From assembly GCA_009694265.1 (NCBI GenBank), contig SHVM01000011.1:1-38759 (forward strand): a stretch of DNA of 38,759 nucleotides, given 5' to 3'. The notes beneath the pieces were generated by a model. The model searched no databases. It worked only from the letters and a program-made list of their open reading frames with translations, and was not told the origin of the DNA. The position numbers and the translations under genes were made by a program. Shown here piece by piece: positions 4,079 through 26,802 of this stretch. Positions within the stretch are counted from its first letter, which is position 1; each line of letters begins with the position of its first letter. Origin of the DNA: Pseudolabrys sp. (GTDB taxonomy: Bacteria; Pseudomonadota; Alphaproteobacteria; Rhizobiales; Xanthobacteraceae).

Positions 4079-4097
4079 GTCACACGCATTGATCACC

Positions 4098-4119
4098 GGC
4101 GGCGCCTCGCGGCGCCGCC
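4098..4119 (+). other. Intercistronic hairpin after the binding-protein gene
   Basis: GGCGGCGCC, loop TCGC, GGCGCCGCC: a perfect 9-bp stem starting 20 bases after the livK stop and about 50 before livH. No T-run follows, so it is more likely an mRNA 3'-end stabiliser or partial attenuator that keeps binding protein above permease than a full terminator. Confidence 0.55.
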
Positions 4120-4168
4120 GCCCGCATGGCGCGGTCATCTTCGCGGCAGCCAGCGAATTGTCCATCTC

Positions 4169-7500: not shown

Positions 7501-7519
7501 ACTAAGGAGTACGATTGCC

Positions 7520-9236: not shown

Positions 9237-10247
9237 ATGAAACGATCCAGCAAACACTTCCTATTGGGTGCCGTGGCCGCGATTTCGGCCGCGACCTATT
9301 TTATGCCCACGCCGGCGACGGCCGCGTGGGAGCCGACCCGTCCGGTGGAATTCATCATTCCGGCCGGAACCGGCGGCGGCGCCGATCAGATGGCGCGCAC
9401 GATCCAAGGCATCGTCACCAAGCATAACCTGATGAAGCAGCCGATGGTGGTGATCAACAAGTCGGGCGGCGCCGGCGGCGAGGGCTTCCTCGACGTCAAA
9501 GGGTCGAAGGGCAACCCGCACAAGATCATCATCACGCTGTCGAATCTGTTCACGACACCGATGGCGACCGGCATTCCATTTAACTGGAAAGATCTCACGC
9601 CGGTCGCAATGCTGGCGCTCGACGAATTCAATCTTTGGGTCAACACCGACAAACCATTCAAGACCGCTAAAGAATTCATCGATGCCGCGAAGACCGCGAA
9701 TGGCACCTTCAAGATGGCCGGCACCGGCTCCAAGCAGGAAGACCAGATCATCACCGAAGCGATCCAGAAGGCTACCGGCGCGAAATTCATCTATATCCCG
9801 GAGCGCGGCGGCGGCGCGGTCGCCGTGCAGCTCGTCGGCAATCACGTCGAATCGACCGTCAACAATCCGATCGAGGCCGTGGCTCATTGGAAAGGTGGAA
9901 AGCTACGTCCGCTATGTTTCTTCGACAGCAAGCGGGTCACCTACAAGGAAGTCGTCGCCGAAGGAAAATCCTGGGCCGACATTCCGACCTGCAAGGAGCA
10001 GGGGCTGGATATCGTGTATCTCATGCTGCGCGGCATCTTCATGTCGCCCGGCGCGACCAAGGAGCAGGTCGATTTTTACGTCGGTTTGTTCCGCAAGGTG
10101 CGTGATACGCCGGAATGGAAAAAGCTCATGGAGGACGGCGCCTTCAATACGACCTTCATGACCGGTGACGCCTTCACAAAGTGGGTGGCAGCGGAAGAAA
10201 AGCGCCACGAAGAGCTGATGAAGGCTGCGGGCTTTATGGCCAAATAA
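9237..10247 (+). CDS. tctC: Tripartite tricarboxylate transporter substrate-binding protein (TctC/Bug)
   Basis: A 336-residue periplasmic binding protein of the Bug/TctC family. The signal peptide is KRSSKHFLLGAVAAISAATY with likely cleavage after ATAA (near 29). The mature start WEPTRPVEFIIPAGTGGGAD is the family's ligand-loop signature. A strong AGGGAGGAG ribosome site precedes the ATG. It is followed by the two membrane subunits, so this is a complete TTT system. Members bind carboxylates. The adjacent oxalate genes suggest a small dicarboxylate, but the ligand cannot be read from the sequence. Confidence 0.92.
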   Translation: MKRSSKHFLLGAVAAISAATYFMPTPATAAWEPTRPVEFIIPAGTGGGADQMARTIQGIVTKHNLMKQPMVVINKSGGAGGEGFLDVKGSKGNPHKIIITLSNLFTTPMATGIPFNWKDLTPVAMLALDEFNLWVNTDKPFKTAKEFIDAAKTANGTFKMAGTGSKQEDQIITEAIQKATGAKFIYIPERGGGAVAVQLVGNHVESTVNNPIEAVAHWKGGKLRPLCFFDSKRVTYKEVVAEGKSWADIPTCKEQGLDIVYLMLRGIFMSPGATKEQVDFYVGLFRKVRDTPEWKKLMEDGAFNTTFMTGDAFTKWVAAEEKRHEELMKAAGFMAK

Positions 10248-10264
10248 ACACGATTGCGCGAAAC

Positions 10265-10292
10265 GCCGCCGGCGGAGCGATCTGCCGGCGGC
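10265..10292 (+). other. Intercistronic hairpin between tctC and tctB
   Basis: GCCGCCGGC, a 10-base loop, GCCGGCGGC: a perfect 9-bp GC stem 17 bases after the tctC stop. There is no T-run. As with the hairpin after livK, it could protect the binding-protein message and lower expression of the membrane genes. Confidence 0.55.
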
Positions 10293-10319
10293 CGCTTTCT
10301 GCCGTCTCGGGAGTAAACA

Positions 10320-10826
10320 ATGGCTAAGAAATCGAAAGGCGCCGCCGTCGGCGGGCCGGCGCACCGGTCCGTGGAGGCGGGTGTAGCGATCTTTGCGGTG
10401 GTGCTTGCTCTGATCACGATAGGTGGCGCCCTTGCCGTCGGTATCGATTGGGGTGCGGAAGGGCCGAAGGCCGGCTTTTTTCCTTTCTATGTCGGCTTGT
10501 TCATTCTCGGATCGAGTTTAATCAATCTGTGGCACGCCTTGCGGGATAACCCGAGCGACAAGCTGTTTGCCGAGTGGATTCAGTTGCGCCAAGTCATGTC
10601 GGTCGTTATTCCGACCACGATCTATGTTTTTCTGATCTCTTGGATCGGGATCTACATCGCCTCCCTGCTGCTCATCGCGCTGTTCATGCGCTGGCTCGGC
10701 AAATATGGCTGGGGTTATGTGGTGGCAGTCGCAGCCGGCACCCCGCTTGTGATTTTCATTGTGTTCGAGAAATGGTTCCTTGTGCCGCTGCCAAAGGGCC
10801 CGCTCGAGGAATTTTTAGGGCTGTAA
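10320..10826 (+). CDS. tctB: Tripartite tricarboxylate transporter small membrane subunit (TctB)
   Basis: A 168-residue protein with about four hydrophobic segments: VEAGVAIFAVVLALITIGGA near 20, GFFPFYVGLFILGSSLINLW near 55, a third near 100 and a fourth near 135. The G(P)KAGFFPFY motif after the first membrane segment is typical of TctB. GGGAG lies 8 bases before the ATG. Its position between binding protein and TctA is the canonical gene order. Confidence 0.88.
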   Translation: MAKKSKGAAVGGPAHRSVEAGVAIFAVVLALITIGGALAVGIDWGAEGPKAGFFPFYVGLFILGSSLINLWHALRDNPSDKLFAEWIQLRQVMSVVIPTTIYVFLISWIGIYIASLLLIALFMRWLGKYGWGYVVAVAAGTPLVIFIVFEKWFLVPLPKGPLEEFLGL

Positions 10827-10886
10827 ATCCAAACGATCAGAGTAACGGGAAATCGGGCGCGTCGCCGCCGCTAGGGTAGAAAGAAC

Positions 10887-12401
10887 ATGGAAGAACTCGC
10901 TAATCTGTTTCATGGCTTCGCGGTCGTGTTGCAGCCGTTCAATATCCTGGTGATGGTCATCGGCATCCTGCTGGGCGTCATCATCGGCGTGCTACCGGGC
11001 CTGGGCGGAGCGAACGGGGTCGCGATCCTGCTGCCGCTGACCTTCTCGATGTCGCCGACATCGGCCATCATCATGCTGTCCTGCATTTATTGGGGCGCAC
11101 TGTTCGGCGGCGCAATCACATCGGTCCTGTTCAATATTCCAGGCGAACCTTGGTCGGTCGCAACGACTTTCGACGGCTATCCGATGGCGCAACAGGGCAA
11201 GGCGGGAGAGGCGCTCACCGCCGCATTCACGTCGTCATTCGTCGGTGCGCTGTTTGCCGTGATCATGATCACGCTGGTGGCGCCGCTGGTCGCCAAGTTT
11301 GCGCTGGAATTTGGTCCGGCGGAAAAATTCGGCGTCTACTTCCTCGCCTTCTGCAGTTTTGTCGGCATGAGCAAGGAGCCTCCGGCGAAGACCGTCGCTT
11401 CGATGATGATTGGATTTGCGCTCGGCGCGGTCGGGCTCGATCAGATGACCGGACAATTGCGTCTCACCTTCGGCATCACCGAACTACTCATCGGCTTCGA
11501 TTTCCTGATCGCCGTTATCGGGTTGTTCGGCATCGGTGAGATATTGCTGACGATGGAAGAAGGCTTGAGCTTCAAAGGCCGTTCCGCGATGATCAATCTG
11601 CGCGTGGTGATCCAGACCTGGAAAGAACTGCCGCGCTATTGGATGACATCGTTGCGCTCGTGCCTGATCGGATGCTGGATGGGCGTCACCCCCGCGGGCG
11701 CCACACCCGCATCCTTCATGAGTTATGGCATCGCCAAGCGCGTTTCGAAGAGGGGCCATAATTTCGGCAATGGCGAGATCGAAGGCGTGGTCGCGCCAGA
11801 AACCGCGGCGCACGCGGCCGGCACCTCGGCGCTGCTGCCAATGCTTGCGCTTGGCGTGCCCGGCTCGCCGACCGCCGCCGTGCTGCTCGGAGGCCTTCTG
11901 ATCTGGGGATTGCAGCCCGGCCCGATGCTGTTCATCGAGCAGAAGGACTTTGTCTGGGGACTGATCGCCAGCATGTATCTCGGCAACGTCGTCGGACTTA
12001 TTATAGTTCTGACCTGCGTGCCGCTGTTCGCCGCGATCTTGCGGATTCCTTTCAGCATCATCGCGCCGATCATTCTCGTGCTGTGCGCCATTGGCGCTTA
12101 TTCCGTGCACAACAGCACCTTTGACGTGGTGATGATGCTGGTCTTTGGCGTCGCCGGCTATCTGCTGAAGAAGTGTAATTACCCGCTGGCGCCGTTGGTC
12201 CTGGCGATCGTGCTCGGCGACAAGGCGGAGGAGTCGTTCCGCCAATCGCTGCTTGCTTCGCAGGGAAGCCTCAGTATTTTCTGGTCGAACGGCCTGGTCG
12301 GCACGATCATGGCGCTTGGTTTGATTGCGCTGTTCTGGCCGATGATCCAGGCCGGCTGGAGCATGCTGATGCCCGTAAAGAAAGGCACGCGGCAAGAGTG
12401 A
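10887..12401 (+). CDS. tctA: Tripartite tricarboxylate transporter large permease (TctA)
   Basis: A 504-residue permease with about twelve membrane segments. The N-terminal GVIIGVLPGLGGANGVAILL is the conserved TctA motif, and LLPMLALGVPGSPTAAVLLG near residue 315 is the matching motif of the second half, which reflects the internal duplication of the family. A 60-base gap separates it from tctB. It forms the channel of the sodium- or proton-driven importer. Confidence 0.93.
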   Translation: MEELANLFHGFAVVLQPFNILVMVIGILLGVIIGVLPGLGGANGVAILLPLTFSMSPTSAIIMLSCIYWGALFGGAITSVLFNIPGEPWSVATTFDGYPMAQQGKAGEALTAAFTSSFVGALFAVIMITLVAPLVAKFALEFGPAEKFGVYFLAFCSFVGMSKEPPAKTVASMMIGFALGAVGLDQMTGQLRLTFGITELLIGFDFLIAVIGLFGIGEILLTMEEGLSFKGRSAMINLRVVIQTWKELPRYWMTSLRSCLIGCWMGVTPAGATPASFMSYGIAKRVSKRGHNFGNGEIEGVVAPETAAHAAGTSALLPMLALGVPGSPTAAVLLGGLLIWGLQPGPMLFIEQKDFVWGLIASMYLGNVVGLIIVLTCVPLFAAILRIPFSIIAPIILVLCAIGAYSVHNSTFDVVMMLVFGVAGYLLKKCNYPLAPLVLAIVLGDKAEESFRQSLLASQGSLSIFWSNGLVGTIMALGLIALFWPMIQAGWSMLMPVKKGTRQE

Positions 12402-12463: not shown

Positions 12464-13225
12464 ATGAGTAGCCGCGTCAGCAACCCACGTAGCGTCAATG
12501 TGCGTACCCGCGGAGCTAGTTCCGCGCCCGCCCGCGCTGCGCTTTCGCAACCCTCGCTCAAGCCGATCGACACCACCCCCAGTTTTAAGCACAAGGCCTA
12601 TGCGGCCTTGAAGAATGCCATCGTGGCGATGGACATCTATCGCAGCCGCGACGACATCCGCCTGGATGAGCGCAAACTGGCGCAGGACTTCGGCATCAGC
12701 CGCACGCCGGTGCGCGAGGCGATGGCGCAGCTCGAGAGCGAAGGCTTCGTGCGTCTGGTGCCGCGTCGCGGCATCTACGTGGTGCGCAAGACCAAGCGCG
12801 AGGTGATCGAGATGATCACCGCCTGGGCGGCGCTGGAAAGCATGGCGGCGCGCTTGATCACACAGAATGCGAGCGAGTCGGAAATCGCCGGTTTGCGCCG
12901 CATGTTCACCACCTTCGAGAATGGCAAGCTGCACGCCCATCTCGACGAGTATTCCGACGTCAATATCGAATTCCACCAGAGCATCATCAAACTCAGTCAC
13001 AACCGGGCGCTGATCGACCTGGCGGAGAATCTGTTCACCCACATGCGCATGATCCGGCGCAAGACCATCGTCGAGCAGGATCGCGCGGACCGTTCGATCC
13101 GCGATCACATGAACATCATCGAAGCTTTGGAAGCGCGCGCCACGGATCGCGCGGAAGAACTGGTGCGCGACCATGCACTCGGCCTGGCCGACCATGTGGC
13201 GCGCTTTGCCGACTACTTGGATTAA
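12464..13225 (+). CDS. GntR-family transcriptional regulator with FCD ligand domain
   Basis: A 253-residue regulator. An extended N-terminal segment (about 40 residues, Arg/Ser/Ala-rich) precedes the winged helix-turn-helix (near 43-110: ERKLAQDFGISRTPVREAMAQ, then EGFVRLVPRRGIYVV). The rest is the all-helical FCD domain, which in this family binds a carboxylate via a metal held by His residues; EFHQSI near residue 168 and the final DHALGLADH fit such ligands. It sits between the TTT transporter and the oxalate genes and probably represses one or both until a carboxylate effector binds. An alternative start would be hard to choose because no strong ribosome site is visible. Confidence 0.9.
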   Translation: MSSRVSNPRSVNVRTRGASSAPARAALSQPSLKPIDTTPSFKHKAYAALKNAIVAMDIYRSRDDIRLDERKLAQDFGISRTPVREAMAQLESEGFVRLVPRRGIYVVRKTKREVIEMITAWAALESMAARLITQNASESEIAGLRRMFTTFENGKLHAHLDEYSDVNIEFHQSIIKLSHNRALIDLAENLFTHMRMIRRKTIVEQDRADRSIRDHMNIIEALEARATDRAEELVRDHALGLADHVARFADYLD

Positions 13226-13287: not shown

Positions 13288-15021
13288 ATGGCTGACACAG
13301 CAACAAAACCGATGCCCGCAGCCGAAGCAGAGCAGGAGCTGACGGATGGCTTTCACCTGGTCATCGATGCGCTCAAGCTCAACGGCCTCAACACGATCTA
13401 CGGCGTGCCTGGCATCCCGATCACGGACTTTGGCCGCATGGCACAGGCGGAAGGCATCCGCGTCATCTCGTTCCGGCACGAGCAGAACGCCGGTTATGCG
13501 GCTTCGATCGCCGGCTTCCTGACCAAGAAGCCCGGCGTCTGCCTCACGGTGTCGGCGCCCGGCTTTCTCAACGGCCTGACCGCGCTCGCCCACGCGACAA
13601 CCAACTGCTTCCCGATGATCCTGATCTCGGGCTCGTCCGAGCGCGAGATCGTCGATCTGCAGCAGGGCGACTACGAAGAGATGGACCAACTCGCCATCGC
13701 CAAGCCGCTGTGCAAGGCGGCATTCCGCGTGCTGCACGCCGCCGACATCGGCATCGGCGTGGCGCGCGCGATCCGCGCCGCGGTGTCAGGCCGTCCCGGC
13801 GGCGTCTATCTCGACCTGCCGGCCAAGCTGTTCGGACAGGTGATGGATGCGGAGGCTGGAAAGAAGTCACTTGTAAAAGTGATCGACGCGGCGCCGGCCC
13901 AGATTCCGGCGCCCGAGGCGGTCAAGCGCGCCCTCGCTGTGCTCAAGAGCGCCAAGCGGCCCCTGATCATTCTCGGTAAAGGCGCGGCCTATGCGCAAGC
14001 CGATGACGCGATCCGCACGCTGGTCGAGAAGAGCGGCATTCCCTTCCTGCCGATGAGCATGGCCAAGGGCCTCTTGCCTGACACGCATCCGCAATGCGCA
14101 GGCGCGGCGCGCTCGACGGTGCTGAAAGACAGCGACGTCGTCATGTTGATCGGCGCGCGTCTCAACTGGCTTCTGTCGCACGGCAAGGGCAAGAGCTGGG
14201 GCGATGCGCCGAAGAAGTTCATCCAGATCGACATCGAGCCGAAGGAAATGGACTCGAACGTCGAAATCGCCGCGCCGGTAGTTGGCGACATCGGTTCATG
14301 CGTCTCGGCGCTTCTGCAGGGCATGGGTGGCAACTGGTCGGCTCCGCCGGGCGATTGGACCGCCGCTGTCACCAATAAGCGCGAAGAGAACGTTGCCAAG
14401 ATGGCACCGCGGCTAATGAACAACAACTCGCCGATGGACTATCACGGCGCGCTCGGCGTGCTGCGTACCATCGTCAAGGAGAGGCCGGACGCCATCCTCG
14501 TCAACGAAGGCGCCAACACGCTCGATCTCGCGCGCGGCATCATCGACATGTATCAGCCGCGCAAGCGCCTGGACGTCGGCACCTGGGGCATCATGGGCAT
14601 CGGCATGGGCTATTCCATCGGCGCGGCCATCGAAACCGGCAAGCCCGTACTCGCGGTGGAAGGCGACAGTGCTTTCGGCTTCTCCGGCATGGAGGTCGAA
14701 ACGATCTGCCGATACAAGTTGCCGGTCTGCATCGTCATCTTCAACAACGACGGTATTTATCGCGGTACCGACGTCAATTCCGTAAGTTCGGATCCGGCGC
14801 CGACGGTGTTCGTGAAGGGTTCGCGCTACGACAAGATGATGGAGGGTTTCGGCGGCGTCGGCGTTAACGTGACGTCCCCGGATGAGTTAAAGCGCGCCGT
14901 CAACGCGGCCATGGATTCCGGCAAGCCGACGCTCATCAACGCGGTGCTCGATCCGGCGGCCGGCAGCGAGAGCGGCCGCATCGGCAATCTCAACCCGCAA
15001 AGCAAGCTGAAGAAGAAATAG
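13288..15021 (+). CDS. oxc: Oxalyl-CoA decarboxylase
   Basis: A 577-residue thiamine-diphosphate enzyme that converts oxalyl-CoA to formyl-CoA and CO2 in the cytoplasm. It follows the Oxalobacter Oxc sequence closely as remembered: [17 protein letters not shown] at the start, [14 protein letters not shown] with the cofactor-activating Glu at 65, [19 protein letters not shown] with the active-site Tyr, and the ThDP/Mg motif GDS (459-461) ending at FNN about 28 residues later. The family is about 565-580 residues long. GGGAG precedes the ATG. It starts 62 bases after gntR and is followed directly by frc, the classic oxalate pair. Confidence 0.96.
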
Positions 15022-15037
15022 AGCAGAACTCGCAACA

Positions 15038-15055
15038 CGCAGCGCTCGGGACAAG
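15038..15055. repeat. Half copy of the palindromic repeat seen at 16526-16647
   Basis: CGCAGCGCTCGGGACAAG differs at one base from CGCAGCGCCCGGGACAAG at 16632-16649. It lies in the oxc-frc gap, just upstream of frc, as the full element lies just upstream of the formyltransferase gene. Confidence 0.6.
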
Positions 15056-15083
15056 GGATAGAGATAGTTTGAGGAGACGGCAA

Positions 15084-16517
15084 ATGGCAAAGAAGAAACG
15101 AACGAAAGCTAAGCAAGCCAAGACAAAACGCCCGGCAAAGAAGTTCCGCAAGGTCGTGAAGCTGTCCTCGGCGAAAAAACCAAAGAAGGGCAACGGCGCG
15201 AGTCTGCCGAAAATGTCGAGCAAGCCGTTTGGCAAAGACGGCAAGGCGCTCACCGGCGTGCGCATTCTCGATTTCACCCATGTGCAATCGGGCCCGACTT
15301 GCACACAACTCTTGGCCTGGCTCGGCGCCGACTGCATCAAAGTCGAACGCCCGGGCGCCGGCGACATCACCCGCGGCCAGCTGGTCGACGTGAAGGGGGC
15401 GGACTCGCTCTACTTCACCATGCTCAACCACAACAAGCGCTCGATCACCATCGACTCCAAGCACCCGCAGGGCATGCGCGTGCTGGAAGCGCTGGTGAAA
15501 ACCTGCGACGTGCTGGTGGAGAATTTCGCGCCCGGCGCGCTCGATCGCATGGGGCTGACCTGGGAGCGCATCCACAAGCTCAATCCGCGCATGATCGTCG
15601 CCTCGGTCAAGGGCTTCGGCCCCGGTCCCTACGAGGACTGCAAGGTCTACGAGAACGTCGCGCAATGCGCCGGCGGCTCTGCCTCGACCACCGGTTTCCG
15701 CGAAGGCCCGCCGCTGGTGACCGGCGCGCAGATTGGTGACTCGGGAACCGGCCTACATCTCGCGCTCGGTATCGTCTCGGCGCTCTATCAGCGCAACCGC
15801 ACCGGCCGCGGCCAGAAGGTGCTCACTGCCATGCAGGACGGCGTGCTCAATCTCTGCCGCGTCAAGCTGCGCGATCAGCAGCGCATCGAGAAAGGTCCGC
15901 TCACCGAATACAGCCAACATAGCGAGGGCGTGCCGTTCGGCGTCTCGGTGCCGCGCGCCGGCAACGACTCCGGCGGCGGCCAGCCCGGCTGGATTCTCAA
16001 ATGCAAGGGCTGGGAGAGCGATCCCGACGCCTACATCTATTTCATCACCCAGGCGCCGGTCTGGCAGGCGATCTGCGACCTGATCGGGGAACCTACCTGG
16101 AAGACCGATCCGGAATACGCCACGCCGCGGGCGCGGCTGCCGAAGCTGAAGGCCATCTTCGCGCGTATCGAGCAGTGGACCATGACCAAGACCAAGTTTG
16201 AGGTCATGAAACTCTGCAACCATGTCGACATTCCAGTTGGCCCGATCCTGTCGATGAAGGAAATCGCCGAGGAGCCATCGCTGCGCAAAACCGGCACGGT
16301 GGTCGAAGTCGATCATCCGACCCGCGGCAAATATCTGACCGTCGGCAACCCGATCAAGATGTCGGACTCGATTTCCGAGGTGAAGCGTTCGCCGCTCTTG
16401 GGCGAGCACACCGACGAGATTTTGATCGATGTGCTCGGCTTCAAGGCCAACGAGGTTGCCGAGATCAAAAACTCCGGCGCATTGAGCGCGCCGAAGAAGG
16501 AAGAGAAGGCGGCGTAA
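15084..16517 (+). CDS. frc: Formyl-CoA:oxalate CoA-transferase with lysine-rich N-terminal tail
   Basis: A class III CoA-transferase that moves CoA from formyl-CoA to oxalate, giving oxalyl-CoA and formate. The catalytic Asp is at 219 in [10 protein letters not shown], the glycine loop SGGGQPGW is near 296, and [15 protein letters not shown] and [10 protein letters not shown] are typical of Frc. The enzyme core starts near residue 55 ([14 protein letters not shown]), while Oxalobacter Frc begins almost there. The first 43 residues are an extra tail with 16 Lys and 3 Arg. The ATG at 15084 is chosen because GAGGAG lies 7 bases before it; a TTG at 15069 and an ATG at 15213 are less likely, and the latter has no ribosome site. 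Confidence 0.94.
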
Positions 16518-16525
16518 AAGCTTCG

Positions 16526-16647
16526 TGTCCCGGACGCGGTGCAGCGCGCTTGCGATGCACCGTAGATCCGGGACCGTCGCGCATACGGAGATTGTTACGG
16601 TCCCAGTTCTGCAGCGCACCGCTTCGCGCTGCGCAGCGCCCGGGACA
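16526..16647. repeat. Two-unit palindromic intergenic repeat element
   Basis: Outer ends TGTCCCGG (16526-16533) and CCGGGACA (16640-16647) are exact inverted copies. The left unit also pairs GTCCCGGA with TCCGGGAC and CGGTGCA with TGCACCG. GGGACCGT pairs with ACGGTCCC across the middle. The sequence fills nearly the whole frc-formyltransferase gap and looks like the dispersed palindromic repeats of Bradyrhizobium-type genomes. The mRNA would fold into two strong stems inside the operon. Confidence 0.75.
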
Positions 16648-16673
16648 AGTAAGAAAGTACGGGGAGAAGTTCG

Positions 16674-17603
16674 ATGCGTATCGTGGTCCACGGCCAGCAG
16701 GCCTTCGGCAAGGCCGTGCTGGAAGCGCTGATCAAGCGCGGCGAGGATGTGGTCGCCGTCTACGTCGCGCCGGAAAAAGAAGGCGCTAAGGCCGATCCGC
16801 TAAAGGAAGCAGCATTAGCCGCAAAGCTGCCGGTGTTTCAGCCCGATTCCTACAAGAAGCCGGAAGTGCTGGCCGAGTTCAAGGCGCTCAAGCCCGACCT
16901 GCAGGTGATGGCTTTCGTGACGCTGTTCGTGCCGGAGGAATTTCTCAATGCGCCGGCCAAGGGTTCGATCCAGTATCACCCGTCATTGCTGCCGGCCTAT
17001 CGCGGCGCTAGCGCCATCAACTGGCCGATCATCAAGGGCGAAAAGGAAACCGGCCTGTCGATCTTCTGGCCCGATAACGGCCTCGATACCGGCGACGTGC
17101 TGCTGCAAAAGAAGACGCCGATCAGCAGCAGCGACACGCTCGGCACCATCTATTTCGACCGCCTGTTCCCGATGGGCGTCGAGGCCATGATGGAATCGGT
17201 CGAGCTGGTGAAAGCCGGCAAGGCGCCGCGCATCAAGCAGGACGAATCGAAGGCCACATATGAAGGCCGCTGCGGACCCGGCAACGCCAAGATCGACTGG
17301 GGCAAGCCGTGGGAGCAGATCGACCGGCTCATCCGCGGCTGCAATCCGGCGCCCGGCGCCTGGTGCATGCTCGACGGCAAGACGGTCAAGATTTTCGACG
17401 CCAAGCCGCTGCCGGCCAAAGACCCGAAGGGCATCGCCGGCAAGCTCGGCGAGGTGGTCGCGGTCGAAGCCGACGGCTTCATCGTCGTCTGCGCCGACGG
17501 CCGCTTCAAGGTCACCCGCGTTCAACCCGCCGACGGCAAGAAGATCGATGCCGGCGAATTCATCGCTACCGCCAAGCTCGCCGTCGGGGCGAGATTCACC
17601 TGA
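16674..17603 (+). CDS. 10-formyltetrahydrofolate hydrolase-like formyltransferase (ALDH1L N-domain type)
   Basis: A 309-residue formyltransferase-fold protein. It resembles the N-terminal hydrolase domain of animal 10-formyl-THF dehydrogenase more than bacterial Fmt: [20 protein letters not shown], then [28 protein letters not shown], and a GAW near 262. The catalytic His is at 102 and Asp at 138, both four residues short of the numbering (106/142) known for the animal domain. The C-terminal domain is the small Fmt-C-like barrel; no carrier or aldehyde dehydrogenase domain follows. GGGGAGAAG precedes the ATG. Placed between frc and fhs, it probably hydrolyses or transfers the formyl group of 10-formyl-THF. 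A tRNA-Met formyltransferase role seems less likely. Confidence 0.82.
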
Positions 17604-17634
17604 TCCTCATTTCCAAATAACGGACCCGCCCCCC

Positions 17635-19332
17635 ATGCCTGCCTCGCAGCATCAATCGCCGAAATCCGACATCGAAATCTCGCAGACCGCCACCAAGCGG
17701 CGCATTCTTGACATAGCTAAGGAAAAACTCGGCATCGCGCCGGAAAATCTCGATCCCTATGGCCACTACAAGGCCAAGGTGTCGATGGATTTCGTCAAGT
17801 CGCTCAAGGACAAGAAGAACGGCAAGCTGATCCTGGTGACGGCGATTTCGCCGACGCCGACCGGCGAGGGCAAGACCACAACCACGGTGGGCTTGACGGA
17901 CGCGCTTAATTTCATCGGCAAGAAAGCCATGCTGTGCCTGCGCGAGCCGTCGCTCGGGCCGTCATTCGGCATGAAGGGTGGCGCGGCCGGCGGCGGCTAC
18001 GCCCAGGTGATTCCGATGGAGGACATCAACCTCCATTTCACCGGCGACTTCCACGCCATCACCTCGGCGCATAATCTGCTCTCCGCGCTGGTCGACAATC
18101 ACATCTATTGGGGCAATGCGCTCGGCATCGATTCGCGCCGCGTGGTCTGGCGCCGCGTCATGGACATGAACGACCGTGCGCTGCGCGAGATCGTCTGCTC
18201 GCTCGGCGGCGTCGCCAACGGCTACCCGCGCGAGGCCGGCTTTGACATCACGGTAGCGTCCGAAGTCATGGCGATCTTCTGTCTCGCCAAAAACCTCGAC
18301 GACCTGAAGGAGCGGCTCGGCAATATCATCGTCGCCTATACCCGCGACCGCAAACCGGTGCGCGCCAAGGACATCAAGGCGCATGGCGCCATGACCGCGC
18401 TGCTGAAGGAAGCGATCGCGCCCAATCTGGTGCAGACGCTGGAAGGCACGCCGGCCTTCATTCACGGCGGCCCCTTCGCCAATATCGCGCATGGCTGCAA
18501 CTCGGTGGTCGCCACCTCCACCGCGCTCAAATTGGCCGACTACGTAGTGACCGAAGCCGGCTTCGGCGCCGATCTGGGTGCCGAGAAATTTCTCGACATC
18601 AAATGCCGCAAGGCCGGCCTGGAGCCATCCTGTGTCGTCATCGTCGCGACCATCCGCGCCCTGAAGATGCATGGCGGCGTCAAGAAGGAAGATCTCAAGA
18701 AAGAGGATTTGAAGGCGCTGGCGGCCGGCATGGCCAACCTGCAGCGCCATGTCGAGAACGTGAAAAAGTTCGGCCTGCCGGCGGTGATCTCGATCAACCG
18801 CTTCTCGGCCGACAGCGACGCGGAAATCGCGCTGGTCAAGGAAAAGTGCAAGGCGCTCGGTGTCGAAGCCGTGATGGCCGATCATTGGGCCTTGGGCGGC
18901 GAGGGCGCCGCCGATGTTGCCAAGGTGGTGGTCAAGACCATCGACGAAAGCAAAGGCAAGCTCAAGCTGCTCTATCCCGACGACATGCCGCTGTTTGAAA
19001 AAATCAGGACCATCGCCAAGGAAATCTACCGCGCCGACGATGCCACCGCCGACAAGTCGGTCAAGGATCAGCTCAAGACCTGGGAAGAGATGGGCTTCGG
19101 CAAGCTGCCGGTCTGCATCGCCAAGACGCAGTATTCGTTCTCGACCAATCCCGATTCCAAGGGCGCGCCGACCGGATTCTCGATTCCGGTGCGCGAGGTT
19201 CGCCTCTCGGCCGGCGCCGAATTCGTGGTGGCGATCTGCGGTGAGATCATGACCATGCCGGGCCTGCCCAAGGTACCGTCGGCCGACTCAATCGACGTCG
19301 GCGCCGACGGCAAGATCGTCGGGCTGTTCTAA
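17635..19332 (+). CDS. fhs: Formate-tetrahydrofolate ligase
   Basis: A 565-residue cytoplasmic ligase that makes 10-formyl-THF from formate, THF and ATP. The P-loop PTPTGEGKT is at residues 73-81, with [20 protein letters not shown] and [17 protein letters not shown] following; the length is normal for the family (about 555-560). The start is the ATG at 17635, since MPASQHQ leads into the usual SDIEISQ start; the frame is open far upstream, but only as a shadow of the previous gene. No purine-rich ribosome site is visible before this ATG, so translation may be coupled to the gene above, 31 bases away. Confidence 0.95.
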
Positions 19333-19360
19333 TCCCTCAACTATCAAACGAGGACTGACC

Positions 19361-20047
19361 ATGATTAAATTTTACTATAGCGGCGCGCCCAATCCGATGA
19401 AGGTGGCGCTCATGCTCGAAGAGACCGGGCTGCCCTATGAGCCGATCCCGGTCGATACCCGCAAGGGCGACCAGCACAAGCCAGAATTCCTGGCGATCAA
19501 TCCGAACGCCAAGGTGCCGGCGATCGTGGACGGCGACGCCACCGTGTTCGACTCAAACGCCATCCTGCTTTATCTCGGCGAGAAGACCGGAAAATTCATG
19601 CCCGCCAACACGCCGAAGGCGCGCGGCGAGCTGCTGTCCTGGCTGATGTTCGTTGCCTCCGGTGTCGGCCCGTTCTCCGGCCAGTCGGTGCACTTCCGCA
19701 ATTACGCGCCGGAAAAAAACGAATACGCCATCAATCGCTACGTCTACGAAGCGACGCGCCATTTCGGCATTCTCGACGCGCGCCTCGCCAAGCAGAAATT
19801 CATGCTGGGCGATGCCTATTCGATCGTCGATATGGCGGTCTGGGGCTGGGCGCGGCTGATGCCGACCGTGCTCGGCGAAGCCGCTTGGGCCAAGTTCCCC
19901 AATTTGAAGCGGATGGTGGACGAAGTCAGCGCCCGCCCGGCGGCGGCGCGCGCGATCGCGGTCAAGGACAAACACAAGTTCAAGACCGAGTTCGATGACG
20001 AAGCCCGCCGTAACATGTTCCGGCATCAGACGGAAAAAGTGGCCTAG
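19361..20047 (+). CDS. Glutathione S-transferase family protein
   Basis: A 228-residue two-domain GST. The thioredoxin-fold half starts IKFYYSGAPNPMKVALMLEE, with the cis-Pro loop AKVPAIVD near residue 50 and the glutathione-gamma-Glu motif DSNAILLYL near 65. The helical half carries GDAYSIVDMAVWGW near 147. This resembles the YfcG/YghU-like bacterial branch, often disulfide reductases rather than classical transferases. GAGGA precedes the ATG. Its place between fhs and the formate dehydrogenase genes suggests cotranscription, but its role in the pathway is unknown. Confidence 0.88.
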   Translation: MIKFYYSGAPNPMKVALMLEETGLPYEPIPVDTRKGDQHKPEFLAINPNAKVPAIVDGDATVFDSNAILLYLGEKTGKFMPANTPKARGELLSWLMFVASGVGPFSGQSVHFRNYAPEKNEYAINRYVYEATRHFGILDARLAKQKFMLGDAYSIVDMAVWGWARLMPTVLGEAAWAKFPNLKRMVDEVSARPAAARAIAVKDKHKFKTEFDDEARRNMFRHQTEKVA

Positions 20048-20114
20048 ATTTCGGGCGCCAGGCTTGCGTCTCCGCCGGCGGGCGGATCGCGGGCTTGTTC
20101 TAATCCCCTGCATG

Positions 20115-20133
20115 CCTCCCCTTACAGGGGAGG
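20115..20133 (+). other. Short perfect hairpin in the leader of the formate dehydrogenase genes
   Basis: CCTCCCCT, loop TAC, AGGGGAGG: an 8-bp stem with a 3-base loop. It lies between the GST stop and the dehydrogenase start, and its right arm overlaps the only purine-rich ribosome-site-like stretch (AGGGGAGGGAGAAG). It could mask that site. It also belongs by look to the CCTCTCCC...GGGAGAGG class of intergenic palindromes. Confidence 0.5.
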
Positions 20134-20146
20134 GAGAAGATAAACG

Positions 20147-20161
20147 ATGAGCGGCGTATAA
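20147..20161 (+). other. Possible four-codon leader ORF before the formate dehydrogenase genes
   Basis: ATG AGC GGC GTA TAA lies 8 bases after GGGAGAAG, and its stop ends 5 bases before the ATG of the dehydrogenase beta subunit, which itself has no ribosome site. Reinitiation after this tiny frame is possible. It may equally be chance. Confidence 0.3.
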
Positions 20162-20166
20162 AAATT

Positions 20167-21858
20167 ATGGATGACAAGCCGACCACCAAGCGGCGAAGGC
20201 CGCCGCGCACGCCAAAAGGCCGTCAGGTCGACCCAGGCGCGCTCACGGATGTGCAGGCGCTGCTGACCGACCGCCCGCGCCGGCGCGATCTGCTGATCGA
20301 ACATCTGCATTTGATCCAGGATCATTACGGGTGTCTCGCCGCCGCGCATCTCGCAGCACTCGCGCAAGAGATGAAAATGGCGCTCACGGAAGTCTACGAG
20401 GTCGCCACTTTCTATGCGCATTTCGATGTGGTGAAGGACGGCCCGTCGCCGCCCGCGATGACCGTGCGCGTCTGCGACTCGCTGTCTTGCGCCATGGCCG
20501 GCGCCGAGAAGCTGCTGGCGGCGCTGCCGGGCAAATTAGGCAAGGATGTGCGCGTGGTGCGCGCGCCCTGCATGGGCGCTTGCGATCGCGCGCCGGTCGT
20601 CGCCGTCGGCCATATGCAGACGTTTCAGGCGAGTGCCGACAAGGTCGCAGCCGCGGTGAAGGCTCGCCCGCATCCGCACGCCTGGCACGCAAGCGCCGAT
20701 TTCGCCGCCTACCAGAAATCCGGCGGCTATAAGCTTTTGAAGGATTGTCTGTCGGGCAAGCGCACGCGCGACGAGCTGATCAAGATCGTCAGCGACGCCG
20801 GCCTGCGCGGGCTAGGCGGCGCCGGTTTCCCCACCGGCCGCAAATGGTCGCTGGTGTGCGCCGAACCGGCACCGCGCCTGTTCGCGGTCAATGCCGACGA
20901 GGGCGAGCCCGGCACTTTCAAGGACCGTTATTATCTCGAACAAGATCCGCACCGCTTTCTGGAAGGCATGCTGATTGCGGCTTACGTCGTCGAGGCGGCG
21001 GACACCTATCTCTATATCCGCGACGAATATCCCGAACTACGGCTAATGCTCGCCGAGGAGATCGCCAAACTCGAGAAGGCGGGTCTGTCGCCGCACACCA
21101 AAGTGCATCTGCGGCGCGGCGCCGGCGCTTACATCTGCGGCGAAGAATCGGCGATGATCGAGTCGATCGAAGGCAAGCGCGGGCTGCCGCGCCATCGCCC
21201 GCCTTACGTCGCGCAAGTCGGCCTGTTCGGCCGCCCGACACTCGAGCAAAACGTCGAAACGCTGTTCTGGATTCGCGACATCGTCGAGAAGGGCGCGGAC
21301 TGGATGACGTCGCAGGGCCGCCGTGAGCGCAAGGGCTTTCGCAGCTTCTCGGTGTCGGGCCGCGTGAAAAAGCCGGGCGTGGTGCTCGCTCCCGCCGGCG
21401 TCACCGCGCGCGAACTGATCGAGGAATTCTGCGGCGGCATGGTGGACGGCGAAAAATTCAAGGGCTACCTGCCGGGCGGCGCCTCCGGCGGCATCCTGCC
21501 GGCCTCGATGGCCGACGAGCCGCTCGATTTCGGAACGCTGGAAAAATACGGCTGTTTCGTGGGCTCGCACGCGGTTGTCATTTTGTCGGACAAGGACGAT
21601 ATGAAGGCGGTCGCGCTCAATCTGATGAAATTCTTCGAGGACGAGTCCTGCGGCCAATGCACGCCCTGCCGGGTGGGCAGCGAAAAGGCCGCTAAATTAA
21701 TGGCTAAAGGCCCGTGGGACGTTAACCTGCTCACCGAACTGTCCACCGCCATGCGCGATGCCTCGATTTGCGGGCTCGGCCAGGCGGCGCCGAATCCGCT
21801 ATTATGCGTGCTGAAATATTTCCCCGATGAACTGAAAAAGCCGCTGGGAACCTGGTGA
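20167..21858 (+). CDS. NAD-dependent formate dehydrogenase beta subunit (NuoE-NuoF fusion, FDH1 type)
   Basis: A 563-residue fused diaphorase subunit that passes electrons from formate to NAD+. The NuoE-like part (about 20-170) has the 2Fe-2S cysteines C103, C108, C135 and C139. The NuoF-like part has the FMN/NADH glycine motif GLRGLGGAGFPTGRKWS near 235, VNADEGEPGTFKDR near 265, GAGAYICGEE near 340 and the 4Fe-4S motif ESCGQCTPC near 495. PKGRQVDP and RDLLIEHLHLIQDHYG near the start match my memory of the beta subunit of Methylobacterium extorquens FDH1, a tungsten enzyme. The alpha gene follows 3 bases after the stop. No clear ribosome site lies directly before the ATG. Confidence 0.93.
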   Translation: MDDKPTTKRRRPPRTPKGRQVDPGALTDVQALLTDRPRRRDLLIEHLHLIQDHYGCLAAAHLAALAQEMKMALTEVYEVATFYAHFDVVKDGPSPPAMTVRVCDSLSCAMAGAEKLLAALPGKLGKDVRVVRAPCMGACDRAPVVAVGHMQTFQASADKVAAAVKARPHPHAWHASADFAAYQKSGGYKLLKDCLSGKRTRDELIKIVSDAGLRGLGGAGFPTGRKWSLVCAEPAPRLFAVNADEGEPGTFKDRYYLEQDPHRFLEGMLIAAYVVEAADTYLYIRDEYPELRLMLAEEIAKLEKAGLSPHTKVHLRRGAGAYICGEESAMIESIEGKRGLPRHRPPYVAQVGLFGRPTLEQNVETLFWIRDIVEKGADWMTSQGRRERKGFRSFSVSGRVKKPGVVLAPAGVTARELIEEFCGGMVDGEKFKGYLPGGASGGILPASMADEPLDFGTLEKYGCFVGSHAVVILSDKDDMKAVALNLMKFFEDESCGQCTPCRVGSEKAAKLMAKGPWDVNLLTELSTAMRDASICGLGQAAPNPLLCVLKYFPDELKKPLGTW

Positions 21859-21861
21859 CAT

Positions 21862-24645
21862 ATGGCCGATAGCAAAGCGACTTTCACCATCGACGACCGC
21901 GAGATCGACATCCGCGAAGGCGAGTCGATCTTCCGCGCCGCGCGCCGGCTCGACATCAAGCTGCCGCATCTGTGCTACACGCCCAAGCCCGGCTATCGCG
22001 CCGACGGCAATTGCCGCGTCTGCATGGTCGAGATCGAGGGCGAGCGCGTGCTGGCGGCCAGCTGCCTGCGCACGCCCTCACCCGGCATGAAGGTCAAAAC
22101 CCAGACCGACCGCGCCAAGACCGCGCGCAAGATGGTCGCCGAATTGCTGCTGACCGACCAGCCGGCCATCGAAATCGCGCACGATCCGGAATCAGAATTC
22201 TGGAAAGTCGCCAAGCGCCAGAACATCAGTGCCGGCCGCTTCCCCAAGCGCGAGGCACGCGCGGTGCCTCCGCCCGACCGCAGCCACCCGGCCATGGCGG
22301 TCAATCTCGATGCCTGCATTCACTGCAACCTGTGTGTGCGCGCCTGCCGCGAAGTGCAGGTCAACGACGTCATCGGCATGGCGGGGCGCGGCCATTTTGA
22401 GAAGATCGTGTTCGATTTCGACGACCCGATGGGCAATTCCACCTGCGTCGCCTGCGGCGAATGCGTCCAGGCCTGCCCAACCGGCGCGCTGATGCCGGCG
22501 ACCGTGGTCGACGAGAAAAACGTGCGCACCGGTTTCCCCGACCGCGAAGTCAACAGCGTGTGCCCCTATTGCGGCGTTGGCTGCCAGCTCACCTACAAGA
22601 TCAAGGACGACAAACTGCTCTATGTGACTGGCCGCGACGGCCCGGCTAACCAGAACCGGCTTTGTGTGAAAGGCCGCTTCGGCTTCGACTATGTCAGCAA
22701 CCCGCAGCGCCTGATGAAGCCGCTGATGCGCAAGGACGGCGTGGCGAAAGCCGCCGACGATCTGGTCGATCCGGCCAACCCGTTCACGCATTTCCGCGAA
22801 GCGACCTGGGAAGAGGCGATGGAGCGCGCCGCGTCCGGCTTGAAGAAAATCCGCGACCGCGACAGCCCGCGCGCGCTTGCTGGATTTGGATCGGCCAAAG
22901 GCTCGAACGAAGAGGCCTATCTGTTCCAGAAGCTGGTGCGCACCGGCTTTGGCTCCAACAATGTCGATCACTGCACGCGGCTCTGTCACGCCTCGTCGGT
23001 GGCGGCGCTGTTGGAAGGCGTCGGCTCGGCGGCGGTGACCGCGACCTTTAACGAGTGCAAGAATTCCGATTTCATCATCGTGATCGGCGCCAATCCGACC
23101 GAGAACCACCCGGTCGCCGCCACCTTCTTCAAGCAAGCGGCCAAGCGCGGCGCCAAGCTCGTGGTCATGGATCCGCGCGGGCAGGCGCTCAAGCGCCATT
23201 CCTGGAAGATGATGCAGTTCAAGAACGGCACCGACGTCGCCATGCTCAACGCCATGCTCAACGTCATCATCGGCGAGAAGCTTTACGACCAGCAATATGT
23301 GCAGACCTATGTCGAAGGCTTCGACCAGCTGGCCCAGCACGTGAAGGATTTCACGCCCGAGGAGATGGATCCGATCTGCGGCATTCCCGCCGATACGTTG
23401 CGCGAGGTGGCGCGCGCATACGCCCGCGCCGAAAGCGCCATCATCTTCTGGGGCATGGGCGTCTCGCAACACACCCACGGCACCGATAATGCGCGCTGTC
23501 TGATCGCACTGTCGCTGATCTGCGGCCAGGTCGGCCGTCCCGGCACCGGCCTGCATCCGCTGCGCGGCCAAAACAATGTGCAGGGCGCCTCCGACGCCGG
23601 TCTCATTCCGATGTTCTTCCCGGATTACAAGTCGGTGGAGAGCCCGGAGATGATCGCCAAATATGAGAAGGCATGGGGCAAGAAACTCGATCCCAAACGC
23701 GGCAAGACCGTGGTCGAGATCATGGACGCGGTGCACGCCGGCGAGATAAAGGGCATGTACATCATGGGTGAAAATCCGGCGATGTCGGACCCCGATTTGA
23801 ACCACGCGCGCGCCGCCCTCGCGCATCTCGAGTGTCTGGTGGTGCAGGACATCTTCCTCACCGAGACCTGCTCCTATGCCGACGTGATCCTGCCGGCCTC
23901 GGCCTGGCCGGAAAAAGACGGCACCGTCACCAACACCAATCGACAGGTGCAGATGGGCCGCAAGGCGCTGCCGCTGCCGGGCGAGACGCGCCAGGACCTG
24001 TGGATCATCCAGGATCTCGCGCAGCGCATGGGCGAGAAATGGAACTACAAGCACGCCAGCGAAGTGTTCGAGGAGATGGCGCGGCTGATGCCGGCGCTCG
24101 ACAACATCACCTGGGATCGCGTGGAGCGTGAGGACCACGTCACCTATCCGACGGACGCACTGGATCAGCCCGGCCACGATGTGGTGTTCGACAAGGGCTT
24201 CCCGCGGCCGAACGGCATGGGCAAACTGGTGGCTGCGAAACTCACGCCGCCGGACGAGTCGCCGGACCACGACTACCCGTTCATCCTCACCACCGGCCGC
24301 CAGCTTGAGCATTGGCACACCGGCGCCATGACGCGGCGCGCTTCCGTGCTCGACGCGCTGGAGCCCTCCGCCTGCGCCTCGGTGTCGCGCGGCACGCTTA
24401 CGAGCCTCGGGCTCAAGCCCGGCGACAAGCTGCGCGTCACCACGCGGCGCGGCGAGGTCGAACTGGCATCGCGCCAGGACGACGCCATTCCGGATGGCGT
24501 GATCTTCATCCCGTTCGCCTTCGTGGAAGCGGCGGCCAATATCCTGACCAACCCGGCGCTCGACCCGTTCGGCAAGATTCCGGAATTCAAATTCTGCGCG
24601 GCGAAGGTGGAAGCGGCCGGGTCGCGGCAACAGGCGGCGGAGTAG
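21862..24645 (+). CDS. Formate dehydrogenase alpha subunit (molybdo/tungstopterin catalytic subunit)
   Basis: A 927-residue catalytic subunit oxidising formate to CO2. In order: NuoG-like 2Fe-2S domain (C38, C51, C54, C68), two 4Fe-4S ferredoxin motifs (CIHCNLC at 152 onward, CVACGEC at 195 onward), a 4Fe-4S motif CPYCGVGC at 234-241 with C268, then the bis-MGD domains. The metal ligand is Cys375 in HCTRLCHASSV, so this is the Cys, not the selenocysteine, form. The C-terminal dinucleotide-binding domain includes TTGRQLEHWHTGAMTRR. With the fused beta subunit it makes a soluble two-subunit enzyme of the Methylobacterium FDH1 kind. Whether Mo or W is used cannot be read from the sequence. Confidence 0.94.
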   Translation: MADSKATFTIDDREIDIREGESIFRAARRLDIKLPHLCYTPKPGYRADGNCRVCMVEIEGERVLAASCLRTPSPGMKVKTQTDRAKTARKMVAELLLTDQPAIEIAHDPESEFWKVAKRQNISAGRFPKREARAVPPPDRSHPAMAVNLDACIHCNLCVRACREVQVNDVIGMAGRGHFEKIVFDFDDPMGNSTCVACGECVQACPTGALMPATVVDEKNVRTGFPDREVNSVCPYCGVGCQLTYKIKDDKLLYVTGRDGPANQNRLCVKGRFGFDYVSNPQRLMKPLMRKDGVAKAADDLVDPANPFTHFREATWEEAMERAASGLKKIRDRDSPRALAGFGSAKGSNEEAYLFQKLVRTGFGSNNVDHCTRLCHASSVAALLEGVGSAAVTATFNECKNSDFIIVIGANPTENHPVAATFFKQAAKRGAKLVVMDPRGQALKRHSWKMMQFKNGTDVAMLNAMLNVIIGEKLYDQQYVQTYVEGFDQLAQHVKDFTPEEMDPICGIPADTLREVARAYARAESAIIFWGMGVSQHTHGTDNARCLIALSLICGQVGRPGTGLHPLRGQNNVQGASDAGLIPMFFPDYKSVESPEMIAKYEKAWGKKLDPKRGKTVVEIMDAVHAGEIKGMYIMGENPAMSDPDLNHARAALAHLECLVVQDIFLTETCSYADVILPASAWPEKDGTVTNTNRQVQMGRKALPLPGETRQDLWIIQDLAQRMGEKWNYKHASEVFEEMARLMPALDNITWDRVEREDHVTYPTDALDQPGHDVVFDKGFPRPNGMGKLVAAKLTPPDESPDHDYPFILTTGRQLEHWHTGAMTRRASVLDALEPSACASVSRGTLTSLGLKPGDKLRVTTRRGEVELASRQDDAIPDGVIFIPFAFVEAAANILTNPALDPFGKIPEFKFCAAKVEAAGSRQQAAE

Positions 24646-24646
24646 G

Positions 24647-24685
24647 CTTTCTTCCCCTCTCCCGCAAGGGGAGAGGGGAAGAAAG
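24647..24685. terminator. Perfect 17-bp hairpin after the formate dehydrogenase operon
   Basis: CTTTCTTCCCCTCTCCC (24647-24663), loop GCAAG, then its exact complement (24669-24685). It begins right after the alpha-subunit stop and ends 19 bases before the convergent minus-strand gene's stop, so it could end transcription from both sides. It has no long T-run. The CCTCTCCCGCAAGGGGAGAGG core also looks like a widespread alphaproteobacterial intergenic palindrome. Confidence 0.6.
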
Positions 24686-25413: not shown

Positions 25414-26802
25414 ATGAATGCACAATCGCATGACATCATCGTGGTCGGTCAGGGCGCCGCGGGGCTCGCCGCAGCGCTGGCGGCGGCGCAAGCAGCGCGC
25501 GGCATTCGCGTCACGCTGGTGGACAAGGCGTCCGAACAAGAGGCCGGCGGCAACACGCGCTGGTCGCCGTCTTATATGCGCATGGCCTCGCCCGACCGCG
25601 TCGAGCCGAGCTTCGTGCACGACATGCTCACCGCCACGCAACATCAGGGCGACGAAGCCTATTTCGCCCGCCTCGCCAAGGAAGCGCCGGCGACGGTGAA
25701 GTGGATCGCCGCCCAAGGCGTCACCTTCATTCAGCCGGTCTATTATCTCGCCAAAGGCCCGCCGCGCATTCAGCCGGAGGGTGGCGGTCCGGCCGTGGTG
25801 AAGCAGCTCGCGCTCGCCGCCAAAGCGGCCGGCGTTATTTTCCGTTACAATTGCGCGGCACAAGCGCTCACCAGCGAGCGCGGCCGCGTCACCGGCCTGG
25901 TCGTGACGCATGATGGCGTGCAGGAAACGCTTGAAGCCTCGGCCGTAATTCTTTGCAGCGGTGGCTTCGAGGGCGACGGCGCCGCGATGCGCGAACACTT
26001 CGGCGAGGGCGCGCAGACCATGCGGCTGATATCGCCCGGCGGAAAATTCAACACCGGCGACGGCATCAAAATGGCCGTCGCGCTCGGTGCCGCGCTTAGT
26101 GGCGATTGGAACGGCATGCATGCCGAGCCGGTCGACGCACGTTCGAAGAATTCCGCGCCGGTCGTGCTGGTCTATCCCTATGGCATTGTGGTCGACAAGC
26201 ACGGCCAGCGTTTTTTCGACGAGGGCTACGGCCTCGTGCACGAGACCTGGGAATGGTTTGCGCGCGGCATGCATTTCAAGGTGCCCGGCAGCATCGCCTT
26301 TGCCATTCTCGACAGCCGCCTGCTTGCGATCCAAGGCTATGAGCGCGCCATTCGCTCCGAGGTGCCGCCGGTGAGCGCCGGCACGCTTGCAGAGCTTGCT
26401 AAACTTATTGGCGTCGATGCCGATAAGCTTGCCGCCACGGTGGCGGTCTACAACGCGGCCTGCACCGGCGACCCGAACACATTCGACGCCACGCGCTGCG
26501 ATGGGCTTGCCGCCAGTCACACGCTTCAACCGCCGAAATCGAATTGGGCCCGCACGATTCAAGAGCCGCCGTTTTTGGCCTATCCGCTGGTCGGCGCGGT
26601 TGCCTATACCTTTGGCGGCCTGGCGACAGACGCCTCCGCCCGCGTGCTGCGCGACGGCTTAGCGATCCCCGGCCTTTATGCCGCCGGCGAAATCACCGGG
26701 CATTTCTATGCGACCGCCCCCAACGCGGTTTCGGTCCTGCGCGCCTTCGTATTCGGGCGGATTGCGGGCTTGGAAGCGGTTTCGTTTTTGCAGGGGTTGT
26801 AG
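25414..26802 (+). CDS. FAD-dependent oxidoreductase, TcuA/fumarate reductase flavoprotein-like
   Basis: A 462-residue flavoprotein of the succinate dehydrogenase/fumarate reductase group. The FAD dinucleotide fold is at the very start (DIIVVGQGAAGLAAALAAA, Gly motif near 12-17), followed by an acidic-Lys end (VTLVDKA). The middle has AVILCSGGFEGD near 180, and the C-terminus has GLYAAGEITGHFYATAPNAV, typical for closing the FAD site. The closest named relative by look is tricarballylate dehydrogenase TcuA. A TTT carboxylate importer elsewhere in the window is compatible with tricarboxylate use, but they are not adjacent. The gene stands alone, divergent from DUF3297. Confidence 0.8.
   Translation: MNAQSHDIIVVGQGAAGLAAALAAAQAARGIRVTLVDKASEQEAGGNTRWSPSYMRMASPDRVEPSFVHDMLTATQHQGDEAYFARLAKEAPATVKWIAAQGVTFIQPVYYLAKGPPRIQPEGGGPAVVKQLALAAKAAGVIFRYNCAAQALTSERGRVTGLVVTHDGVQETLEASAVILCSGGFEGDGAAMREHFGEGAQTMRLISPGGKFNTGDGIKMAVALGAALSGDWNGMHAEPVDARSKNSAPVVLVYPYGIVVDKHGQRFFDEGYGLVHETWEWFARGMHFKVPGSIAFAILDSRLLAIQGYERAIRSEVPPVSAGTLAELAKLIGVDADKLAATVAVYNAACTGDPNTFDATRCDGLAASHTLQPPKSNWARTIQEPPFLAYPLVGAVAYTFGGLATDASARVLRDGLAIPGLYAAGEITGHFYATAPNAVSVLRAFVFGRIAGLEAVSFLQGL

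Follow-up and report, generated by a model that had tools for sequence, protein, structure and literature searches.

The window analyzed here is a 38,759-nucleotide stretch of Pseudolabrys sp. DNA (contig C51 of a 2.49-Mb assembly with a completeness of 91%), and it carries an oxalate operon, oxc-frc-FmtL-fhs-GST-fdhBA, which includes a gene for a formyltransferase-like protein that we call FmtL. On the + strand, in order, are oxc, encoding oxalyl-CoA decarboxylase (13288–15021; TIGR03254, 1035 bits, cut-off 739); frc, encoding formyl-CoA:oxalate CoA-transferase, here extended at the N-terminus by a lysine-rich segment (15084–16517; TIGR03253, 704 bits, cut-off 504); FmtL, a predicted stand-alone formyltransferase of the FTHFDH-hydrolase type (16674–17603; PF00551 and PF02911, below the Fmt cut-off); fhs, encoding formate--tetrahydrofolate (THF) ligase (17635–19332; PRK13505, 936 bits, cut-off 652); a gene for a glutathione S-transferase-like protein (GST; 19361–20047), which has GST domains and exceeds no curated cut-off; fdhB, a NuoE-NuoF fusion forming the diaphorase part of formate dehydrogenase (20167–21858; PF01257, PF01512, PF10589); and fdhA, the formate dehydrogenase alpha subunit with a NuoG-like N-terminus (21862–24645; TIGR01591, 740 bits, cut-off 666). 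From oxc to fdhA the gaps are 62, 156, 31, 28, 119, and 3 bp. Ahead of oxc, also on the + strand, are a tripartite tricarboxylate-type transporter, tctC-tctB-tctA (9237–12401; PF03401, PF07331, PF01970), of which oxalate is the presumed substrate, and a GntR-FCD family regulator (12464–13225; PF00392, PF07729), which ends 62 bp 5' of oxc and likely regulates the oxalate operon. The one-strand operon with its GntR and tctCBA genes in front is thus confirmed as real, and open reading frames together with family models bore out the calls of oxc, frc, fhs, GST, and formate dehydrogenase, with short gaps on the + strand, that had been made in an earlier sequence-only reading of this DNA. The adjacency of oxc and frc on the same strand, both over their curated cut-offs, is shared with the oxc-frc operons of CoA-dependent oxalate degradation, such as E. 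coli yfdXWUVE. Compared with the latter, the window operon adds FmtL, fhs, and fdhBA and has no YfdE-like CoA-transferase.

FmtL is a protein of 309 residues whose only domains are PF00551 and PF02911; carrier, aldehyde dehydrogenase, ACT, and enoyl-CoA-hydratase-like domains are all missing. Its closest solved relative is 2bw0, a hydrolase domain of 10-formyl-THF dehydrogenase (FTHFDH, ALDH1L1), with E 5.9e-65; the best Fmt reached 2.8e-47. An AlphaFold2 model built from a 37-row alignment (mean pLDDT 95.5) gave a matching picture in Foldseek, where the FTHFDH domain 4qpd had the best E-value (3.3e-36), closely followed by Fmt (1.5e-34) with a slightly higher TM-score, so that fold alone is not decisive. 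HypX (HoxX) came further down (6j0p, E 6.9e-20); its N-terminal domain shares the fold at about 21% identity, but FmtL lacks the enoyl-CoA-hydratase-like second domain of HypX. These sequence and fold matches to FTHFDH upheld the earlier description of the 16674 product as hydrolase-like. A tree of 44 rows separated FmtL and the human FTHFDH row, which has a long branch, from four true Fmt proteins with a support of 100/100.

His106, Ser108, Asp142, and Tyr200 occur in every row examined, the four true Fmt among them, and Arg114 in all but one; because true Fmt have them too, His106, Ser108, and Asp142 are not diagnostic of the FTHFDH domain. Position 104 differs, being Gln in most FmtL (Cys in seven rows, Leu in one), Ile in human FTHFDH, and Asn in the four Fmt, and the exchange of Ile104 for Asn in FTHFDH is described as leaving less than 10% of hydrolase activity (PMC4388273). 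FmtL shares His106, Ser108, Asp142, and Tyr200 with its best relative, FTHFDH, and differs from it in standing alone, in having Gln for Ile104, and in lying beside Frc. With Fmt it has two Pfam domains and a fold in common, but it scores only 175.8 bits against the Fmt model TIGR00460 (cut-off 201.5), falls separately in the tree, and has Gln or Cys at position 104, where Fmt has Asn. Its likeness to PurU consists of the Formyl_trans_N domain, a possible reaction, and a complementary distribution described below; in contrast to PurU it has Formyl_trans_C and no ACT domain, and scores 19.9 bits against TIGR00655 (cut-off 286). The source genome holds three Formyl_trans_N genes, namely FmtL, a top-scoring gene on contig C91 whose size suggests PurN, and one on C101 that the tree places among true Fmt; a search of this genome for PurU found none. 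The sequence marks FmtL as a free-standing relative of the FTHFDH hydrolase domain and not as a tRNA formyltransferase. An identity as methionyl-tRNA formyltransferase is ruled out by the score, by residue 104, and by the presence of the C101 gene, and membership in the PurU family by the bit score and the lack of an ACT domain, although the PurU reaction is weighed below as a rival.

The closest named relatives of the window FmtL are labelled Hyphomicrobiales, Xanthobacteraceae, and Pseudolabrys, among others, which points to an alphaproteobacterial source from this group. Within the genus, 18 of 23 genomes have a full FmtL (81–89% identity), one more has a fragment at a contig end, and four have none. 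Long regions were available for 17 of these 18 loci: FmtL is flanked by frc and fhs in every one, oxc is present in 16, fdhB in 13, and GST in 12, with some of the absences falling at contig ends; a complete tctCBA precedes oxc in 14. Several genomes hold other genes between fhs and fdhB, and the fhs-GST-fdhBA half is therefore less conserved than oxc-frc-FmtL-fhs. One such gap (L035, 12481–13008) contains an inorganic-pyrophosphatase-like gene and others, all named by eye.

Beyond the genus, the steadiest partner of FmtL is Frc. Amongst the best 80 of 591 relatives, a set biased to close kin by this choice, frc lies beside FmtL in 78 loci. The two exceptions are L070, truncated where its contig stops, and L126, where FmtL has other surroundings: at 5259–8433 its neighbors are a gamma-glutamyltransferase gene on one side and, on the other, the beginning of a serine-hydroxymethyltransferase-like gene with which the contig ends. 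In a larger, redundant collection (L063 and L037, for example, are the same DNA), 118 of 135 loci have frc directly upstream of FmtL in the same orientation, the 135 being 139 loci less L002 and true-Fmt-like rows where present. A class-wide draw of 386 genomes gave 36 FmtL matches, from which four true-Fmt-like genomes were left out (G059, G111, G215, and G300; E 3e-62 to 9e-61). Three of these were examined (L194–L196) and were 35–36% identical and grouped with true Fmt; G111 was dropped on score and genus alone. In this draw, FmtL was positive in 32 genomes, Frc in 36, PurU in 98, and Fhs in 182. Frc occurred in 27 of the 32 FmtL genomes and in 9 of the 354 others (p 7e-29), and in 19 of 20 FmtL genera. 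At the 31 class-wide FmtL loci outside the window, Frc was adjacent in 17 and not near in 14, and 9 of the 14 genomes concerned carried Frc elsewhere. Solitary FmtL genes were seen next to biotin-synthesis-like genes (L193, 9443–10363) and between accA-like and tilS-like genes (L228, 9337–10308), all named by eye.

Further analysis showed that the thiamin diphosphate (ThDP) enzyme beside Frc is not always Oxc, being another protein in 5 of the 80 loci and in 6 of the 17 Frc-linked class-wide loci. Three of these non-Oxc proteins scored 216–225 bits against the Oxc model (cut-off 739) and 338–352 bits against a 2-hydroxyacyl-CoA lyase model (cut-off 600), and for one of them the nearest solved structures were actinobacterial 2-hydroxyacyl-CoA lyases (E 4e-77). 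Enzymes of that kind are reported to produce formyl-CoA (PMC7176365), and the lyase-like protein beside Frc is likely another formyl-CoA maker, as far as its sequence indicates. Since Oxc is replaced while Frc and FmtL stay, the compound shared by these loci would be formyl-CoA. The lyase-like loci occupy scattered positions on the FmtL tree, and the exchange of Oxc has therefore probably happened more than once. Lyase-like ThDP-Frc pairs, often with FmtL, were found at L093 (6383–8140), L117 (6775–8520), L053 (11264–12991), L171, L174, L176, L191, L192, L198, and others. Similar pairs occur without FmtL nearby (L202, L203, L205, L210–L213) and on Cupriavidus metallidurans and Phyllobacterium replicons.

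Fhs, encoded next to FmtL in the window, does not always accompany it. The gene at 17635 is the only Fhs found in the source genome, and a 690-residue version of its open reading frame starting at 17260 is over-extended, as it overlaps FmtL. Nine Frc-linked FmtL loci lack an fhs in their vicinity although over 4 kb of DNA was available downstream. Moreover, a phylum-wide search yielded eight further FmtL genomes, with Frc adjacent in seven and none within about 10 kb in the eighth, G713; Fhs was found in three of the eight and not found in G713, G544, G583, G650, and G726. The last four belong to one genus of another lineage, are rated 100% complete, and combine Frc-FmtL and FolD with no Fhs found. 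Regions of 20 kb from G544 and G726 showed the order oxc-frc-frc-FmtL. The frc and FmtL frames of G544 share one base, and this genome also encodes PurU (327.7 bits, cut-off 286). Fhs as a fixed partner of FmtL is ruled out, given that FmtL is linked to Frc both at loci lacking a neighboring fhs and in genomes where no Fhs was found. The genomic tie between FmtL and formyl-CoA enzymes thus outlasts the loss of linked Fhs as well as the exchange of Oxc. The sequence-only reading had suggested a cycle in which Fhs loads formate onto THF and FmtL releases it again; this suggestion is weakened because FmtL follows Frc also where Fhs is not adjacent (the nine loci) or not found (four genomes).

We propose the following mechanism. 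Oxalate would be imported by TctCBA, Frc would transfer CoA from formyl-CoA to oxalate with release of formate, and Oxc would decarboxylate oxalyl-CoA and regenerate formyl-CoA. Formate would then be oxidized to CO2 by FdhAB or loaded onto THF by Fhs with ATP. The Frc/Oxc, FdhAB, and Fhs steps are predicted from membership in well-defined families. FmtL would act as a formyl-CoA:tetrahydrofolate N10-formyltransferase, shuttling formyl between the thiol of CoA and THF and linking the CoA-bound and folate-bound one-carbon pools. It could either draw 10-formyl-THF from formyl-CoA without ATP or, together with Fhs, turn formate into formyl-CoA and so start or refill the CoA cycle. Formyl transfer from formyl-CoA to THF is probably downhill. 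By our own stoichiometry, each formyl-CoA withdrawn would cost one turn of the Frc cycle, since Frc needs formyl-CoA as CoA donor, and this cost argues for a biosynthetic side flow or for refilling of the cycle and not for a main energy route.

The chemistry of homologous domains points in the same direction. In vitro hydrolysis by the FTHFDH hydrolase domain is described as needing millimolar mercaptoethanol (PMC4388273). In whole FTHFDH a phosphopantetheine thiol is described as the formyl acceptor, and for HypX, of the same fold, the formation of formyl-CoA from 10-formyl-THF and CoA has been proposed (PMC6802093). Because CoA carries the same phosphopantetheine arm and the stand-alone domain is encoded directly behind frc, FmtL may best be read as a CoA-THF formyl exchanger. 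Its family, fold, catalytic residues, and conserved pairing with Frc were established by computation; we infer the reaction, the part of CoA as acceptor or donor, and the direction. An exchange of formyl between CoA and THF by FmtL is the reading we favor, and it seems to us to have a little less than an even chance of being right. Somewhat more tentative is the wider proposal in which FmtL, as formyl-CoA:THF formyltransferase, would be a fixed part of a portable Frc-FmtL module to which Oxc or a 2-hydroxyacyl-CoA-lyase-like enzyme is attached, with some bacteria feeding one-carbon metabolism from oxalate or 2-hydroxy acids without Fhs. The start of the CoA cycle is a recognized problem, assigned in E. 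coli to the acetyl-CoA:oxalate CoA-transferase YfdE (PMC3720670). Apart from the E. coli control, no YfdE-like gene was present in any collected locus, with or without FmtL, and for that reason complementarity with YfdE does not test cycle priming.

Several observations weigh against formyl exchange with CoA. The class-draw p-values ignore descent, which the genus count softens and does not remove, and the search alignment (A1) leaned toward Frc-linked members, which made up 10 of its 11 rows. Fourteen of the 31 class-wide loci stand alone, in 5 of the 32 FmtL genomes no Frc exceeded the cut-off, and Fhs is present in 30 of the 32 as compared with 152 of the 354 others. The replacing ThDP enzyme stays below the lyase-model cut-off, and the HypX authors themselves state, in their text on transfer to CoA, that direct results on it are lacking (PMC6802093). 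Moreover, PurU was found in none of the 32 FmtL genomes and in 98 of the 354 others and, within Frc genomes, in 0 of 27 with FmtL and 6 of 9 without. Such avoidance would fit a 10-formyl-THF deformylase that substitutes for PurU in the manner of the FTHFDH hydrolase, frees THF, passes formate to FdhAB, and with Fhs sets the size of the one-carbon pool, as in the load-and-release cycle of the sequence-only reading; the nearest characterized domain, after all, bears the name hydrolase. Nevertheless, this enzyme would waste ATP against the Fhs of its own operon, FmtL lacks the ACT domain of PurU, and G544 combines PurU with a Frc-adjacent FmtL and has no Fhs. One of the six PurU-positive Frc genomes, G406, has only a weak PurU match below the cut-off and carries, next to Frc where a contig ends, a fragment of FmtL; in the class-draw tables it is counted as Frc without FmtL. 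PurU and Fhs also avoid each other generally (PurU in 24 of 182 genomes with Fhs vs 74 of 204 without), and among genomes with Fhs, PurU avoids FmtL less strongly (0 of 30 vs 24 of 152, p 0.016). On balance we consider a deformylase rather unlikely, though the main rival.

Two other readings appear much less probable. FmtL might formylate something else, for example a tRNA, an amino-sugar, or a carrier protein, with another reason for its place beside Frc, as relatives formylate Met-tRNA or amino-sugars and solitary FmtL genes adjoin unrelated genes; the co-occurrence of FmtL and Frc even where they are unlinked and the separate true-Fmt-like gene of the source genome make this improbable. The least probable reading is that of a folate-independent formyl-CoA hydrolase or scavenger that merely limits formyl-CoA build-up. 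It would account for FmtL remaining paired with Frc whether Oxc or a lyase-like enzyme is the partner, but FmtL keeps the catalytic and folate-site residues of a folate-using family, of which no folate-independent member is known to us.

Direct transfer between formyl-CoA and THF, the other option raised in the sequence-only reading, is favored over the load-and-release cycle: it fits the tracking of Frc and the chemistry of homologous domains (PMC6802093, PMC4388273), although the avoidance of PurU speaks for a deformylase.

Other features of the locus are as follows. About 50 lysine-rich residues precede the family match of Frc (15084–15240), and its true start may be the ATG at 15213. A repeat scan placed two nested imperfect inverted repeats at 16526–16647, inside the 156-bp frc-FmtL gap, perhaps a mobile intergenic repeat, and a perfect 17-bp hairpin directly past the fdhA stop (24647–24685), possibly the transcript end. 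The fdhA frame has no in-frame stop and hence no selenocysteine codon. A promoter scan gave no promoter-like match, and terminator-like matches were no commoner than in shuffled sequence. Ahead of tctCBA (2837–8449) lie an ABC importer of amide/branched-chain type and then a formamidase-family gene (PF03069), a possible second source of formate. Past the operon (25414–26802) lies a tricarballylate-dehydrogenase-like flavoprotein (341 bits, TcuA cut-off 369). A search of the source genome with PF02550 gave no match.

Viral contigs yielded no relative. Plasmid records gave five matches at E 1e-40, one of them (46%) an FmtL by its neighbors and the other four 32–34% identical. The plasmid record CP031587.1 holds oxc-frc-FmtL-fhs, with FmtL annotated as methionyl-tRNA formyltransferase (fmt_2). 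In the literature searched, which left most subscription papers out of reach, we found no description of a formyl-CoA:THF formyltransferase or of this operon; the earlier remark that no such operon had been described holds to that extent, but the core operon is common and present in public records. We regard the widespread oxc-frc-FmtL-fhs core as a variant of the oxc-frc operons already known, in which the likely activity of one protein would be new.

If our proposal for FmtL is true, formyl-CoA would be a branch point into folate metabolism, beyond its role as CoA donor of the oxalate cycle, and the annotation of FmtL as methionyl-tRNA formyltransferase would be corrected. FmtL would also be an enzyme usable in synthetic formyl-CoA pathways, and an oxalate degrader without Fhs could draw its one-carbon units from oxalate.

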